DNA of 35,806 nucleotides from Arsukibacterium tuosuense (GTDB lineage Bacteria; Pseudomonadota; Gammaproteobacteria; Steroidobacterales; GCA-2729495): contig CAMBYH010000018.1 of assembly GCA_945872065.1 (NCBI GenBank), positions 1 through 35,806 on the forward strand, read 5' to 3'. Of the stretch, positions 24,876 through 31,135 are shown in pieces (the stretch's first letter is position 1; every line of letters begins with the position of its first letter). The translations under genes were made by a program, and so were the position numbers. Below the pieces are notes generated by a model. It did not search any database and had not been told where the DNA came from. It saw only the letters and a list, made by a program, of their open reading frames with translations.

Positions 24876-27047
24876 ATGCCGCCTTTGCTGCCGCCGGAAC
24901 TCAATTCCCTGCTGGAAGCCCGTGATCACGACCCCTTCCGCTGGCTGGGGCGGCACCCCTCGACGGCTGACCGGGTCGTCGTCCGGGCGCTCCTGCCCGA
25001 TACAGCCAGTGTGGAGATCGTGGAGGCCAAAGCGGCCATGTCCAGGGTCGGTCAGACGGACCTTTTTGAGTGGCAGGGCCCTGCCCTGGCGGTACCGGTC
25101 CGGTATCAGTTACGCACTGTTCGCGGCGATGGCTCGGTAAGCCAGGTCTTTGACCCTTACTGCTTTGGACCCCAGCTGGACGACGGCCAGATCAGCGCCT
25201 TCAACGGGGGCCACCACAACGCGGCGCACCGGTTTCTGGGATCCCATGCCTGGGAGGCGGACGGCATCACCGGTATGCGTTTCGCTGTCTGGGCCCCCAA
25301 CGCCGGACGGGTCAGTGTGGTTGGGGACTTCAATCGCTGGGACGGATGCTGCCACCCGATGCGGATCCGGGGAGGAACCGGGGTCTGGGAACTGTTCATC
25401 CCGGGCCTGACAGAGGGGCTCTACAAGTACGAGATCCGCAACCGCCATGCCGGAGACCTGCGCCTGAAGACTGACCCCTTCGCCCGGGAGTTCGAACTCA
25501 GGCCTGCCACCGCTTCCCGGTTCCGCCCGGCCACCCCGTTCCAGTGGCAGGACGACGCCTGGCTGCGGGAGCGACGGGCCAGTGACTGGCTACGTGCGCC
25601 GCTCTCGATCTACGAGGTGCACTTCGGGTCCTGGCGTCGCCACCCGGACGGCCGCTCCCTCACCTACCGGGAAGCTGCTGATGCCCTCGTCCCCTACGTA
25701 AAGGCTCTGGGCTTTACCCATGTGGAATTCCTGCCCCTCACGGAGTTTCCCCTGGACGAGTCCTGGGGCTATCAGCCCGTGGGTTACTTTGCACCCACCA
25801 GCCGCTACGGCAGCCCGGATGACCTGCGCTACCTCATCGATGCCTGTCATCGCGGCGGCCTGGGAGTGATCCTGGACTGGGTGCCCGGTCATTTCCCACG
25901 GGACAGCCACGGCCTCGCCGACTTCGACGGCTCCCCACTCTTCGAGTACGGGGATCCGCAAAAGGGCAGCCACCCGGACTGGGGCACGCTCATCTTCAAT
26001 TTTGACCGGCAGGAAGTGCGCAGCTTTCTGCTGTCGAGCGCGCGCTTCTGGCTGGAAGAGTTTCACGTGGATGGCCTGCGGGTGGATGCCGTGGCCTCCA
26101 TGCTGTACCTGGACTACTCCCGGAAACCGGGTCAGTGGTACCCCAACGTGCACGGAGGCAACGAGAACCTCGAGGCCGTGCACTTCCTCCGGGAACTGAA
26201 CACGATGACTCACCGGGACTTTCCCGGCACGGTCACCATCGCCGAGGAGTCCACCGCCTGGCCCGGCGTGAGCCGCCCCGTCGACACGGGTGGACTGGGC
26301 TTCAGCATGAAGTGGAACATGGGCTGGATGCACGACACCCTGAAGTACCTGCAAATGGACCCCGTCCACCGCAAGCACCACCACGATCTCCTGACCTTCG
26401 GCCCCGTTTACGCTTTCAGTGAAAACTTCCTGCTGCCCTTGTCCCATGACGAGGTGGTGCACCTCAAGGGCTCACTGCTGGGAAAGATGCCGGGAGATGA
26501 CTGGCAGCGGTTCGCCAACCTGCGCCTTGCCTTCGTCTTCCAGTGGACCTATCCGGGACGCAAGCTCCTGTTCATGGGTGGCGAACTGGCCCAGCCCTGG
26601 GAGTGGAATCACAGGGAGTCGCTGCCCTGGCACCTGATCGATGACCGCCGCCACAGGGGGATGCACAGGCTGGTGGGAGATCTCAACAGGCTCTACACCA
26701 GCACCCCTGCCCTGCACGAGATGGACTTCGACGGCCGTGGCTTCCATTGGCTGCGCTGGGACGATGCGGATAACTCAACCCTGAGCTTCGTGCGTCGGGC
26801 AGACCTTGCCGCGGTTGTCGTGGCGCTCAATTTCACCCCGGTGCCGCGGCCCGGCTACCGGCTCGGCGTTCCCCAGGCGGGACTCTGGCAGGAAGTGCTC
26901 AATTCCGACTCACGCTTTTATGGTGGCAGCGATCTGGGCAACCCTGGCCTGCATCAGGCAGAAGCGGTACCGGCCATGGGGCAGCCTTGGTCTCTCGTGG
27001 TCACGCTCCCACCCCTGGCGGGAGTGGTACTGGCGCCTGCGCCCTAG
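24876..27047 (+). CDS. glgB: 1,4-alpha-glucan branching enzyme
   Basis: A GH13 branching enzyme, 723 residues, that creates alpha-1,6 branches. It has an N-terminal CBM48-type domain ([20 protein letters not shown]), the catalytic barrel with nucleophile D404 ([12 protein letters not shown]) and acid E457 (TIAEEST), LSHDEVVH, and a C-terminal beta domain. An extra N-terminal module (residues about 1-110) makes it the long two-N-domain form, like E. coli GlgB. GGGAG precedes ATG 24876. It faces glgP with the stops ten bases apart and no terminator in between. Confidence 0.96.
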
Positions 27048-27056
27048 GCACGGCGC

Positions 27057-29681
27057 TCAGATCCAGCGCATCAGACCCAGTTCGTAGGGGTGTGACAGCT
27101 GCGGGTGAGACGGAGACCCGCGGACCCTGAAATGCAGAGCTCCGCACCAGGGGGGCCGCAACTCAACCCGGTAATGCTGCACACCATCCCCGTCGGTGGA
27201 ACCGACGGCAGCGAAGTCCTGGACATAGACATGGTCCTCACCCACCAGGCGCAGACCCGGCTCAGCCATCCCGCGATCCGCAAACTGCCGCACAGGTACC
27301 GTCAGATCGGAACAGATTTCCCGGGACACGATGCACTCAAGCCGGACATCAGTGGCAGTCAGTCCGTTCAGTTTAACGTCGACCTCAAGGCTGACACTGG
27401 TGTTGAAATCAATGCGGTTGGCCACGGTACCGTTCAGACGCAGGCCGACCCCGGGCCAGGCCGCCCGCACCTTCTGCTTCCAGACAGCGAGGCTCCGGGC
27501 CGCCGCGTAGCCATCCATCGCCAGCTCGCGGCCGCGACGCGCCGCTGGCCCGTAGAACAACACCGAGTAATCGTGCACGGTACGGTTCATGTTGAAGTGG
27601 GGCAGGATGGTGGACATGGAGCGCTTGCACTTGCGGACCCAACCGGGGGAGTAGCCGAGGCGTTCATCCCTCGCGTAGTAGAGAGGAATGATCTCGTCCT
27701 GCAGTATCTCGTAGAGGATCCGCGAATCGTGCCGGTCCCGCTCGGCGGGATCGTTGATCTGGGTAGACGGTGGAATGGCCCAGCCGTTTTCCCCATCGTA
27801 GGCTTCAGCCCACCAGCCATCGAGCACGCTGCAGTTAACGGTGCCATTGATGGCCGCCTTCATGCCCGAGGTACCACTGGCTTCCATGGGGTGGACCGGG
27901 GTGTTCAGCCACACGTCCACGCCAGAGGTGAGCAGGCGGCCCAGGCCCATGTCGTAGCCTTCGACCAGCAGCAGCTTTCCCGAGAACTCGGGCAGGCAGC
28001 TGACCCGGTGCAACTCCTGCATCAGCAGCTGCGCCGGGCGGTCCGCCGGGTGGGCCTTGCCGGCAAAAATGAACACCACCGGCCGCTCATCCTTGTCGAT
28101 GATGTCTTTCAGCCAGCCGAGATCCTGCAGTAGCAGGGTCGCCCGCTTGTAGGTGGCGAAGCGCCGGCCGAAGCCGACCGTCAGCACATCGGGTCGCGCG
28201 GGATCCAGATACTTGAGTAACCGGTGGGCGTGGGCTTCGGAAAGCTGGTTCCGCGCGTGCTGCCGGCGCAACCGGTCCCGGAGCCCCGTGAGCATGGCGG
28301 CCTTCACCTGCTGCCCGACATACCAGAAGCGGCCATCTGGAATCTCCTGGATCTGCCGCATCAGGTCCCGGTCCATCAGCTGATAGCGCCAGGACGGGCC
28401 AATGCTTTGCTCAAGCAAATCCGCCCATTCCGATTGCATGAACGTGGGTACGTGCACCCCGTTGGTGACAAAGCCGATGGGATTCTCGGCCGCCGCGATC
28501 TCCGGCCAGTTCGACGAGCAGATCGCGGCAGTCGCGTGGCGATGGATACGACTGACGCCATTGACGTTGCGGGCACCGGTCAGAGCCAGCCGGGTCATGT
28601 TGAATCCGGAGTGCCCGCCGCCGTCAGAGCCCAGATTAAGGAAGCCCTGCTCCCCGATACCCAGCTCCCCGATCAGGTTATGGAAGTAACTGGCAACGAC
28701 ATCCCGGTCAAACACGTCGTGGCCCGCAGATACCGGCGTGTGGGTGGTGAAGACCGTGCAGGCAGCAACGGCCTCCACGGCAGCGTCAAAGTCCAGGCCA
28801 CCAGTTACCAGCTCCCGGATGCGCTCGACGATCTGGAAGGCCGCGTGCCCCTCATTGATATGCCACACCCGCGGGGCGATACCGGCAGCCCGGAGTGCCC
28901 GGACACCCGCAATACCCAGAATGATTTCCTGCTGGAGCCGCGTCTGTTCGTCACCCCCGTACAACTGCCGGGTGATCTGCCGGTCGGCGGGGTCGTTCTG
29001 GGGCAGATCGGTATCCAGGAGCAGCACGGGGATACGCCCCACATCGGCCTGCCAGGCCTTGATGGCAACCTGCCGCCCCGCCAGATCGCAATGCACAACG
29101 ACCTCGTTGCCCGCAGGGTCCAGGGCCGGCCGGACGGGGGCATCCTCCGCCTGGATGTAGCTGTACTCCGCGATCTGCTGGCCGTGCTCATTGATGCGCT
29201 GGTTGAAGTAGCCCTGACGGTAGAGGAGACCCACGGCAACGAAGGGCAAACCCATATCGCTGGCCGTCTTGCAGTGATCGCCGGCCAGGATGCCGAGGCC
29301 ACCGGAATAGATGGGGAAGCTCTCGTGATAGCCAAATTCCGCGCAGAAGTAGGCCACGAGGTCGTCCGCCCCAAGGCCCGCCGGCTTGTAACCCGCCGTG
29401 CGCTGCTCCAGGTAGGAGTCGTACTCGGCCAGCGCGCGCCGGTAGGCGCCCAGGAAGGTGTCGTTGTTGGCAGCAATCTCCAGCACCGACTGGTCGACAC
29501 AGCGGAGAAAAACCCGCGGGTTGCGGCCTGTCCTCCACCACAGCTCACGATCGAGGAGCTCGAAGAGGTGGCGCGTGGGGCGGTGCCAGCTGAACCAGAG
29601 ATTGGCCGCCAGATCGTTCAACCGGGCAATGCGTTCCGGAAGGCGAGGCTGGACGTGAAGGGAGAACTGCTGACCTGTCAT
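27057..29681 (-). CDS. glgP: Alpha-glucan (glycogen) phosphorylase, DUF3417-type
   Basis: A GT35 phosphorylase, 874 residues, that releases glucose-1-phosphate from glycogen with pyridoxal phosphate. The N-terminal LNDLAANLWFSWHRPTRHLF is the DUF3417 domain of the short bacterial/archaeal phosphorylase branch, unlike E. coli GlgP. GGLGILAGDH and the PLP Lys K608 in GTSGMKAAINGT are present. The ATG at 29681 lies one base after the encoded CCA of tRNA-Lys, so there is no leader and no Shine-Dalgarno. A TAA in the tRNA anticodon loop blocks any upstream start, and no ATG, GTG or TTG lies between. The next in-frame candidate (TTG, residue 21) would cut into the domain and lacks a ribosome-binding site. 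Confidence 0.93.
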   Translation of the reverse strand: MTGQQFSLHVQPRLPERIARLNDLAANLWFSWHRPTRHLFELLDRELWWRTGRNPRVFLRCVDQSVLEIAANNDTFLGAYRRALAEYDSYLEQRTAGYKPAGLGADDLVAYFCAEFGYHESFPIYSGGLGILAGDHCKTASDMGLPFVAVGLLYRQGYFNQRINEHGQQIAEYSYIQAEDAPVRPALDPAGNEVVVHCDLAGRQVAIKAWQADVGRIPVLLLDTDLPQNDPADRQITRQLYGGDEQTRLQQEIILGIAGVRALRAAGIAPRVWHINEGHAAFQIVERIRELVTGGLDFDAAVEAVAACTVFTTHTPVSAGHDVFDRDVVASYFHNLIGELGIGEQGFLNLGSDGGGHSGFNMTRLALTGARNVNGVSRIHRHATAAICSSNWPEIAAAENPIGFVTNGVHVPTFMQSEWADLLEQSIGPSWRYQLMDRDLMRQIQEIPDGRFWYVGQQVKAAMLTGLRDRLRRQHARNQLSEAHAHRLLKYLDPARPDVLTVGFGRRFATYKRATLLLQDLGWLKDIIDKDERPVVFIFAGKAHPADRPAQLLMQELHRVSCLPEFSGKLLLVEGYDMGLGRLLTSGVDVWLNTPVHPMEASGTSGMKAAINGTVNCSVLDGWWAEAYDGENGWAIPPSTQINDPAERDRHDSRILYEILQDEIIPLYYARDERLGYSPGWVRKCKRSMSTILPHFNMNRTVHDYSVLFYGPAARRGRELAMDGYAAARSLAVWKQKVRAAWPGVGLRLNGTVANRIDFNTSVSLEVDVKLNGLTATDVRLECIVSREICSDLTVPVRQFADRGMAEPGLRLVGEDHVYVQDFAAVGSTDGDGVQHYRVELRPPWCGALHFRVRGSPSHPQLSHPYELGLMRWI

Positions 29682-29682
29682 A

Positions 29683-29758
29683 TGGTGGGCCGTGATGGAT
29701 TTGAACCATCGACCAACGGATTAAAAGTCCGCTGCTCTACCAACTGAGCTAACGGCCC
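29683..29758 (-). tRNA. tRNA-Lys(TTT)
   Basis: Seventy-six bases fold as a complete tRNA: acceptor GGGCCGT/ACGGCCC, D-arm GCTC-AGTTGGTAGA-GAGC-like, anticodon stem GCGGA/TCCGT with loop CTTTTAA (anticodon TTT at 29723-29725), T-arm GATGG-TTCAAAT-CCATC, discriminator A and an encoded CCA (29685-29683). It follows queC, as in Pseudomonas, where this tRNA-Lys is a known island integration site. The 3' end abuts glgP. Confidence 0.97.
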
Positions 29759-29804
29759 CATGTGAATATCGGATTCCTGCCTGTCTAGGCTGTGGAGTGA
29801 AGAG

Positions 29805-29821
29805 AAGATGCGCCGCATCTT
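29805..29821 (-). terminator. Hairpin overlapping the queC stop codon, possible weak terminator
   Basis: AAGATGCG and CGCATCTT form a perfect inverted repeat around one base (effective loop three to five). On the minus strand it starts at the queC TAA stop and is followed by pyrimidine-rich CTCTTCACTCC rather than a run of T. It could attenuate read-through from the tol-que operon into tRNA-Lys, or be an RNA-stabilising stem. Confidence 0.4.
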
Positions 29822-30491
29822 AGCGATAGCGCGTGGGATCCGCCACGCCGGCCGCAGAAAATCCGGCCCTTCGCAGGCGGCAGGCATCACAGTTTCCGCA
29901 GGCCTCCCCCGCCTCCGTGGCCTGATAGCAGGAGACGGTAGCCCCGAAATCCACCTTAAGCCCCAGCCCGGTCCGGACGATCTCAGCCTTGCTCATCAGC
30001 AACAATGGCGTATGCACAACAATGGGCTGGCCCTCCACGCCCCTCCGCGTCGCCAGGTTGGCCAGTCGCTGAAATGCCTCCAGATAAGCCGGCCTGCAAT
30101 CCGGATAGCCCGAGTAGTCGATCGCGTTCATCCCGGCGTAGATACGGTCGGCATCCAGCACCTCGGCGAGGCCCAGAGCGAAGGCCAGAAATACCGTATT
30201 GCGGGCCGGGACGTAGGTGATGGGGATGCCTGAGCCCGCAACCGTGGGGACTGTAAGCTGCTGATCCGTCAGGGCCGAGCCGCCAAAGTCCCCCAGACCA
30301 ATCGTCAGGGTCCGGTGTTCCACAGCACCCAGCGTCAGGGCCATCCGCTTCGCGGCGTCCAGCTCGGCCCGGTGGCGCTGGCCGTAGTCAAAACTCAGGG
30401 CGTGACACTCGCACCCGTCCTGCCGGGCCAGGGCCAGGCAGGTGGCCGAATCCATGCCACCTGACAAGAGAACTACCGCCCGGGTGGCCAT
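29820..30491 (-). CDS. queC: 7-cyano-7-deazaguanine synthase
   Basis: Converts 7-carboxy-7-deazaguanine to preQ0 with ATP and ammonia in queuosine biosynthesis; 223 residues. The PP-loop SGGMDS is at residues 10-15 and the zinc site is C188, C198, C201, C204, matching the E. coli pattern closely. The frame extends 61 codons upstream inside queE, but that part is Ala/Pro/Arg-rich shadow sequence. ATG 30491 gives the normal N-terminus ([12 protein letters not shown]) and lies two bases after the queE stop, indicating coupling. Confidence 0.96.
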
Positions 30492-30493
30492 CG

Positions 30494-31135
30494 TCAATGA
30501 CCCGGCCCGTCGCCCCAGAGGTACTTGTGCAGCTGGAGCTGGAAGCGCACCGGCAGCCGGTCCTCGAGGATCCAGTCTGCGAGCTCCCGCGCTGGCTGCT
30601 GCTCCCAGGCCGGTGAAAACAGAACCTCGCACCGGGCAGGCAGGTCGTGCACACGCAGCTGGTCGCGGGCCCATTCGTAGTCAGGCCGGTTACAGACCAC
30701 GATCTTGATCTGGTCCTCCGGCTTCAGGAGCGGGAGATTGGCCCACAGGTTGCGCTCACACTCCCCGGAAGCCGGTGTCTTGAGATCAAGGACTACCGCT
30801 ACCCGGCGGTCCACGGCGGCAATGTCCAGAGCGCCGCTGGTCTCCAGGGACACCCGGTAACCCGCGTCACAGAGCGCCGCCAGCAAGCCGAGACAGGCTG
30901 GCTGCGCGAGCGGCTCACCGCCGGTAACGCACACGTACCTGACCTGAAACTCGGCGACGCGGGCCAGAATCGCCGCCACGTCCAGGCGCTGCCCGCCGTG
31001 AAAGGCATAGGCCGTGTCGCAATACGCGCACCGCAGGGGGCACCCCGTGAGGCGCACGAAGGCCGTGGGATACCCGACGGGACGGGATTCGCCCTGGAGT
31101 GAGTGAAAAATCTCGGTGATGCGCAGGGCAGACAC
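30494..31135 (-). CDS. queE: 7-carboxy-7-deazaguanine synthase (radical SAM)
   Basis: A radical SAM enzyme that contracts the ring of 6-carboxytetrahydropterin to 7-carboxy-7-deazaguanine; 213 residues. The cluster motif is C32-x3-C36-x2-C39 (CPLRCAYC). [10 protein letters not shown] at the N-terminus, [10 protein letters not shown] and the terminal [10 protein letters not shown] are family hallmarks. It starts with GTG at 31135 and has no clear Shine-Dalgarno; the upstream GATATACC could be part of a promoter. It follows cpoB at 43 bases, the order known from Pseudomonas. Confidence 0.95.

Follow-up and report, generated by a model that had tools for sequence, protein, structure and literature searches.

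What can drive the expression of a gene whose start codon lies a single base behind a transfer RNA (tRNA) gene? The question is raised by a contig of Arsukibacterium tuosuense (CAMBYH010000018.1; its whole stretch of 35,806 nucleotides (nt) is called the window here), in which glgP, the gene for a glycogen phosphorylase, abuts the 3' end of tRNA-Lys on the same strand. In this work we have followed up a preliminary description of the junction. We consider it rather probable, at about 60%, that glgP has become the second cistron of the tRNA-Lys transcript after losing its own sigma-70-type promoter and leader, and that its message would be freed by tRNA processing and translated leaderless. The junction consists of the following parts, in window coordinates. 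Papers are given by their PubMed Central (PMC) identifiers and are cited for the passages of them that were available to us.

29683..29758, minus strand: tRNA-Lys(UUU) with encoded CCA (ARAGORN call TTT; Rfam tRNA at 29686-29758, 78.3 bits)
29682, minus strand: the lone spacer base between CCA and ATG, read from the sequence as T (C in the congener G030)
27057..29681, minus strand: glgP, a DUF3417-containing glycogen/alpha-glucan phosphorylase of 874 amino acids with an ATG start, from its open reading frame (ORF), domains and orthologues
29721..29723, minus strand: in-frame TAA in the anticodon loop of the tRNA, 14 codons off, which closes the glgP frame upstream
29681..29682, minus strand: predicted ribonuclease (RNase) E cut, AU↓AUG against RN↓WUU (the arrow marks the cut), which would leave tRNA-CCAU and a 5'-monophosphate AUG messenger RNA (mRNA); from the sequence and the consensus of PMC5222698

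The fused geometry stands as first described. ARAGORN, Rfam and the sequence agree that the tRNA ends at 29683 and that one T separates it from the ATG at 29681; after the CCA the minus strand reads T and then ATGACAGGTCAGCAG. A spacer of one base leaves no room for a terminator, a promoter or a Shine-Dalgarno (SD) sequence outside the tRNA, as had also been noted for the terminator and the SD. The further claim that glgP cannot start earlier proved correct. The sequence between the upstream TAA and 29681 holds zero ATG, GTG or TTG in the glgP frame, and the aligned Met is the start in all 17 other full-length orthologues of the family. Since DUF3417 (PF11897, 100.3 bits) extends from residue 14 and the next start codon, a TTG at codon 20, already lies within it, the ATG at 29681 is taken as the start. 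On the grounds of frame, domain limits and orthologues we regard this start as secure, and a wrongly chosen start codon is ruled out. A Phosphorylase domain (PF00343, 86.7 bits) covers residues 360-622; both domains score above their curated cut-offs, and the product has the domains of a DUF3417-type GT35 glycogen/alpha-glucan phosphorylase. The tRNA in front of it is the sole tRNA-Lys(UUU) among the 41 tRNAs found in the source genome (G000, an assembly of 130 contigs).

Is the junction a feature of this one genome? We searched 40 genomes of the family, 22 of which had a protein match to GlgP and 18, the source genome included, a full-length close orthologue (identity at least 67% in the source genus, g1, and in genus g5, and 62-64% in the remaining genera). 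The congener G030, whose GlgP is 85% identical to that of the source genome, has the identical one-base junction, CCA-C-ATG. An assembly error is ruled out, as the same junction occurs in this second genome with different flanks. A pattern of the tRNA-Lys 3' end followed by 0-2 nt and ATG matched in 2 of 396 genomes taken from the order, G000 and G030 only (its tRNA part covers 20 of the 29 tRNA-Lys loci of the family, so that the search is not exhaustive). The junction is thus an arrangement of one lineage and two species, and we claim no statistical excess. The two glgP genes are 80% identical in DNA, with 90, 92 and 56% identity at codon positions 1, 2 and 3, and they agree at 202 of 420 four-fold sites (48%). 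This alignment places neutral sites close to saturation and shows purifying selection on the protein, which argues that the gene has long been used in genomes with the junction. Over the same distance the spacer between queC, the upstream neighbour, and tRNA-Lys has changed from 61 nt in G000 to 84 nt in G030, and other short tRNA-gene gaps from 16 to 17 (Val-thrS), 20 to 13 (Glu-RDD) and 37 to 21 nt (Asp-ppiD-like).

Where, then, would transcription of glgP begin? A promoter motif, TTGCCG-N17/18-(C/G)A(T/C)AAT, stands 40-53 nt before the ATG in 12 of the 18 orthologues, three of them in genus g1; L008 and L009 are near-identical, so these 12 are not all independent. The motif is missing from both junction genomes, from G014 (glgP locus L007), which belongs to another genus of the family, and from L017 and L018, and L006 has CATAAT alone. 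Within the 170 nt preceding the ATG, the hexamer pair closest to consensus matches at 7 of 12 positions in G000 and at 6 in G030, whereas 11 of the 16 others reach 9, and a scan of 29500-30000 gave no promoter-like or terminator-like site. There is no separate promoter between tRNA-Lys and glgP, where the spacer is a single base and the family motif is missing. Because both junction genomes are without this motif, expression of glgP seems to depend on the tRNA-Lys transcript. The surroundings from which this transcript would come, and the gene on the other side of glgP, are these.

29820..30629, minus strand: queC, the upstream neighbour (start codon chosen; the frame extends to 30674), with its stop at 29822-29820
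29817..29822, minus strand: weak -10-like TAAGAT overlapping the queC stop and followed by GCGGCGC, a candidate promoter for tRNA-Lys and glgP (7 of 12 consensus matches with its -35)
24876..27047, plus strand: glgB, convergent with glgP, 9 nt separating the two stop codons

The position of the TAAGAT reads TAAAAT in G030 and TAAGAT in a second congener, G029, and several relatives have a clearer TATGAT/TATCAT-GCGCG box before tRNA-Lys. Promoters of tRNA genes with such a G+C-rich stretch are often under stringent control, and if this were true here it would tie glgP to the growth rate. The convergent order of glgB and glgP is also present in six further genomes of the genus, G030-G035, some copies being clipped by contig ends.

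The history of the junction can be followed through queC, which had a protein match in 37 of the 40 family genomes. A same-strand tRNA-Lys follows it in 29 of the 30 loci examined, and the next gene varies; it is glgP in three genomes, at 1 nt in G000 and G030 and at 114 nt in G014. The remaining 15 full-length orthologues were without a same-strand tRNA in the upstream flank examined (1,500 nt each, except for 872 nt at L003 and 132 nt at L018). The comparison with relatives proposed in the preliminary description thus has a mixed outcome: the congener G030 keeps the single base, and these other genomes do not show the junction. This distribution suggests that the leadered state of glgP is more simply read as the older one. 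The simplest reading suggested by these comparisons is that glgP-glgB came to be placed behind tRNA-Lys, and that the line of G000 and G030 then lost promoter and leader; the first of these steps is perhaps shared with G014, perhaps not. G029, by QueC the nearest congener (93%), had neither glgP nor glgB detected in a genome that is 92% complete. There, an integrase gene (Phage_integrase, 103 bits; L326:9416-10561) starts about 146 nt after the tRNA-Lys 3' end (L326:10708). A similar protein start follows tRNA-Lys(CUU) in the source genome (L146). A search of 12.5 kilobases (kb) of G029 for an att-like second copy of the tRNA 3' end matched the tRNA itself only. A mobile-element junction at the tRNA 3' end in G000 is unsupported, given the convergent glgB-glgP of the six other genus genomes that have the two genes, whole or in part. 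Among the best 80 of at least 588 confirmed glgP loci from named genomes (L031 and L032 are the same contigs as G031 and G039), none had a tRNA-Lys upstream of glgP in the flanks examined, which reached up to 3,000 nt and were often shorter. Eleven of these 80 loci had a tRNA-Leu(CAA) 44-440 nt upstream on the same strand (L065, L070, L074, L075, L081, L083, L084, L092, L094, L095 and L106).

How could such a start be recognized by ribosomes? Pairing of the 20 nt before the ATG with the anti-SD was -1.7 kcal/mol in both G000 and G030, against -13.2 for a strong control, so that neither junction genome has a usable SD sequence upstream of glgP if the standard anti-SD is assumed; the 16S 3' end of G000 was sought by one exact pattern and not found, and the standard anti-SD was used in its place. 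In this respect glgP is in common company. Leaders reaching -4.4 kcal/mol were 6 of the 18 of glgP and 1 of 27 of thrS (27 of 30 loci were scored), compared with 33% of random 20-mers. Taking these scores, initiation without an SD is ordinary for glgP and thrS in the family, and therefore the step to a leaderless message would be smaller than it first seems. For the genome as a whole we used a crude gene set of 147 non-overlapping ORFs of at least 200 amino acids in 215 kb of G000, in which 58 ATG starts had a close upstream stop. An SD of -6 kcal/mol or stronger preceded 26% of these 58 starts (20% after shuffling) and a core SD 4-mer 34% (21%), while the same script applied to 22 E. coli starts gave 41% (20%) and 45% (28%). 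This is suggestive only of a weaker use of the SD in G000 than in E. coli.

The course of events that we propose begins with RNA polymerase, which would start at a queC/tRNA-Lys promoter and continue across the tRNA into glgP. RNase P would free the 5' end of tRNA-Lys, and an endonuclease, most likely RNase E, would cut between the CCA end and the AUG, with CCAU↓AUG as the best site; 3' exonucleases would then trim the tRNA. The freed 5'-monophosphate glgP mRNA would begin with AUG, or with U-AUG if the cut falls right after CCA, and would be translated as a leaderless message. As predicted at the outset, any cut that falls at CCA or beside it would give a near-leaderless message. Excision of the tRNA would expose glgP to ribosomes, since only five bases separate the acceptor stem from the AUG as long as the transcript is uncut. 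Glycogen breakdown might then also be tied to the maturation of tRNA-Lys, as the preliminary description had suggested. In the predicted fold the acceptor, anticodon and T stems are retained, with the tRNA-glgP junction unpaired. RNase E cleavage leaves a 5' monophosphate. From 22,033 in vivo sites in Salmonella the consensus RN↓WUU was derived, with the U at +2 most important (PMC5222698), and AN↓AUG fits it at 4 of 5 positions. With one base of spacer, position -2 is taken by the last A of the tRNA, -1 by the spacer itself, and +1 and +2 by the AU of AUG; without it the base at -2 would be C. Because this gap aligns AN↓AUG, a favourable predicted RNase E site lies immediately in front of the AUG, and the identity of the spacer base does not matter to it. 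We infer from this alignment a cut exactly at that point, giving a 5'-monophosphate leaderless mRNA. In E. coli, leaderless translation needs a 5' phosphate and is lowered by the distance of the AUG from the 5' end (PMC9031893).

What is found of the processing machinery? Two genes of the RNase E/G family score above cut-off. None of the eight g1 genomes had an RNase Z above the TIGR02651 cut-off, the matches scoring only 20-28 bits and spanning no more than 89 of the 302 positions of this one model. CCA is encoded in 37 of 41 tRNAs in G000, 31 of 33 in G029 and 44 of 45 in G030. The tRNA-Gln(TTG) upstream of a prs-like gene seemingly has no encoded CCA in G000 (L166) and G029 (L260) and has one in G030 (L234). 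Maturation of tRNA 3' ends in E. coli begins with cleavage a few nt downstream, after which exonucleases trim the end; RNase E acts here together with RNases PH and T, or else RNase BN does the work (PMC4681348).

Several points weigh against this course of events. The complete promoter motif is missing from L006, L007, L017 and L018 as well, so that its absence does not decide the matter by itself, and the candidate promoter TAAGAT is only a weak match to the consensus. Five of 14 control genomes likewise fall below the RNase Z cut-off, so a divergent RNase Z is possible. The RNase E consensus is derived from Salmonella, and its U at +3 is a G at the junction. One Salmonella tRNA for which an RNase E site is quoted has it 15 nt downstream (PMC5222698), and RNase E is not used by all tRNAs (PMC9841416). 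The usual endonuclease cut in E. coli and P. acnes falls a few nt past CCA (PMC4681348, PMC3848588); a cut of that kind here would remove the AUG of glgP. As for the constancy of the spacer, one base offers few chances for insertion or deletion, so its retention in two species is weak evidence of selected spacing, and a single pair with a constant gap is no proof that the gap is under selection.

Could glgP be expressed in another way, or hardly at all? Perhaps ribosomes use the AUG while the tRNA is still attached to the glgP transcript, by internal initiation without an SD on the single-stranded stretch after the acceptor stem, and cutting of the tRNA is unneeded or even harmful. Starts weaker than -4.4 kcal/mol are common (12 of 18 glgP and 26 of 27 thrS leaders), the SD signal in the crude gene set is faint (26% against 20% shuffled) and the predicted fold leaves the junction single-stranded, all of which would suit such initiation. 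The acceptor stem, however, ends five bases before the AUG. This is well inside the footprint of a ribosome, and processing of the tRNA is expected to be fast. Structures at the start codon inhibit both modes of initiation, as tabulated in PMC9031893. We regard use of the uncut transcript as unlikely. That a cut a few bases past CCA, or 3'-to-5' trimming of the downstream RNA, destroys the start, leaving glgP almost silent and the junction a neutral accident that precedes loss of the gene, is in our opinion quite unlikely. Such cuts are the known E. coli pattern (PMC4681348) and neither glgP nor glgB was detected in G029, which would fit; on the other hand, GlgP is under purifying selection across the two junction species, its frame and domains are intact, and the integrase gene 3' of tRNA-Lys in G029 offers another reason for the loss there.

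A promoter within queC, in the spacer between queC and the tRNA or in the tRNA itself might also make a separate glgP mRNA and be missed by a consensus scan, as atypical promoters do escape such scans. Against it stand the empty scan of 29500-30000, the poor hexamer pairs of G000 and G030 given above and the constraint on the tRNA sequence to be a tRNA. Furthermore, if transcription began upstream of the tRNA, the product would be no different from the bicistronic RNA that we propose. We rate a separate hidden promoter as decidedly improbable.

The preliminary description had taken the junction for a single oddity, and here it has to be revised. We looked for genes downstream of the tRNAs of G000 (41 of 41 analysed), G029 (33 of 34) and G030 (45 of 45); names ending in '-like' were read from protein starts, without a family search. 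The clearest case is thrS, identified by Pfam.

C1:82990-84915: thrS in the source genome (loci L179 and L183; the family thrS loci are L184-L212)

It follows tRNA-Val(GAC) by 16, 16 and 17 nt in G000, G029 and G030, and this tRNA lies upstream on the same strand in 22 of the 30 family loci examined. The gap is 16-28 nt in 10 of the 22 (six g1 and four g8 genomes) and 41-181 nt in 12, five of which (101-181 nt) have a TAGAAT or TAAAAT box. Since a loose TANNNT pattern has matches in 4 of the 10 short gaps too, it is uninformative alone. As mentioned above, all but one of the 27 scored thrS leaders fall short of -4.4 kcal/mol. As thrS is as a rule essential, its expression from the tRNA transcript, with a leader of 16-28 nt and no SD, probably works. 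In the order G000, G029 and G030, an RDD-like gene (Pfam RDD, 22.2 bits in a 90-residue fragment, just under the cut-off) follows tRNA-Glu(CUC) by 20, 20 and 13 nt, a ppiD-like gene tRNA-Asp by 37, 37 and 21 nt and a trigger-factor-like gene tRNA-Leu(UAG) by 40, 40 and about 39 nt. A secE-like gene lies 15 nt after tRNA-Trp in G030. The glgP junction is, on these sequences, part of a wider pattern of short tRNA-gene gaps in the genus and family, and with this pattern and the second species the observation, an unusual one, is stronger than it was in the preliminary description. A junction at tRNA-Pro(GGG), with 1 nt (G000, L178, C1:75700-77700, minus strand) or 3 nt (G030, L244) to an ATG, is not counted as a second case. 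In both genomes a second in-frame ATG precedes a signal-peptide-like stretch, the G000 reading is split over two frames, and the gene is CpeT-like at 18.2 bits, under the Pfam cut-off.

As a control we examined G049, a genome from another family of the order with 39 tRNAs, for ORFs of at least 90 amino acids starting within 100 nt. A prs-like gene (GTG), preceded by a GGAGAGAG stretch, lies 21 nt after tRNA-Gln, and ORFs lie 45 nt after tRNA-Asn and 56 nt after tRNA-Gly, and a trigger-factor-like gene 53 nt after tRNA-Leu. By eye, the ORFs within 15 nt (2, 3 and 5 nt; TTG, ATG and TTG) look like frames that arose by chance or starts that were extended too far. With genes at 21-56 nt from a tRNA in G049, closeness to a tRNA is not confined to genus g1, and this speaks against close junctions being special as such; the distinctive cases are only the extremely short, promoterless ones.

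Which known systems does this arrangement resemble? In what it would do, tRNA-Lys-glgP resembles the tRNA punctuation of animal mitochondrial RNA processing, a model reportedly put forward by Ojala, Montoya and Attardi in 1981 (as referenced in PMC5203842). In both, a tRNA lies directly before the frame, the start codon is at or near the end that excision of the tRNA would create, and there is no SD. They differ in that glgP is on a bacterial chromosome and its CCA is encoded, so that the cut must fall after CCA; RNase E is the likely enzyme here, RNase Z not having been found by one model; and glgP is one gene among leadered ones, with a cut predicted from sequence, and no instance of a genome-wide rule. 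The E. coli operons thrU-tyrU-glyT-thrT-tufB and metY-rimP-nusA share with glgP a same-strand tRNA gene upstream of a protein gene, and they are cotranscribed and their parts separated by tRNA processing. Their real leaders, with which the junction had been contrasted, are indeed long, 114 nt from thrT to tufB and 206 nt from metY to rimP, leaving room for a leader and a ribosome site, whereas glgP has 1 nt. Leaderless mRNAs such as lambda cI and those of P. acnes, S. coelicolor and mycobacteria likewise have no SD and an AUG at or next to the 5' end, as is predicted for glgP, but those described in PMC3848588 and PMC4681348 arise from the start of transcription, while the 5' end of glgP would come from RNA processing. 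In the leaderless mRNAs attributed to MazF in E. coli an endonuclease also removes the leader. MazF, however, is a stress toxin whose model was not reproduced by other laboratories (PMC9031893), and toxin cuts leave 5'-OH ends (PMC3848588), whereas the cut at glgP would be tRNA maturation. No report of a bacterial mRNA starting at a tRNA 3' cut, at the CCA end, was found in the open-licence literature searched, which is not proof of absence.

Is it possible that glgP is the end state of a more general process? We offer tentatively, as possible rather than probable, the idea of a bacterial tRNA punctuation. In this lineage tRNA genes would have taken over the promoter and the 5'-end formation of neighbouring genes, with loss of promoter and leader until gene and tRNA abut. 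At glgP, an RNase E cut at AN↓AUG would release a strictly leaderless 5'-monophosphate mRNA and at the same time start the maturation of the tRNA 3' end. The series from the other relatives through G014 to G030 and G000 suggests how a gene may drop its promoter and leader and come to lean on a tRNA, and the thrS series suggests a second gene that has gone most of the same way. If our reading is true, a single endonuclease cut in a bacterium gives a tRNA and a ready leaderless mRNA, and leaderless translation in proteobacteria would gain a constitutive source besides transcription starts or stress toxins. The junction would then be a natural bacterial counterpart of mitochondrial tRNA punctuation.

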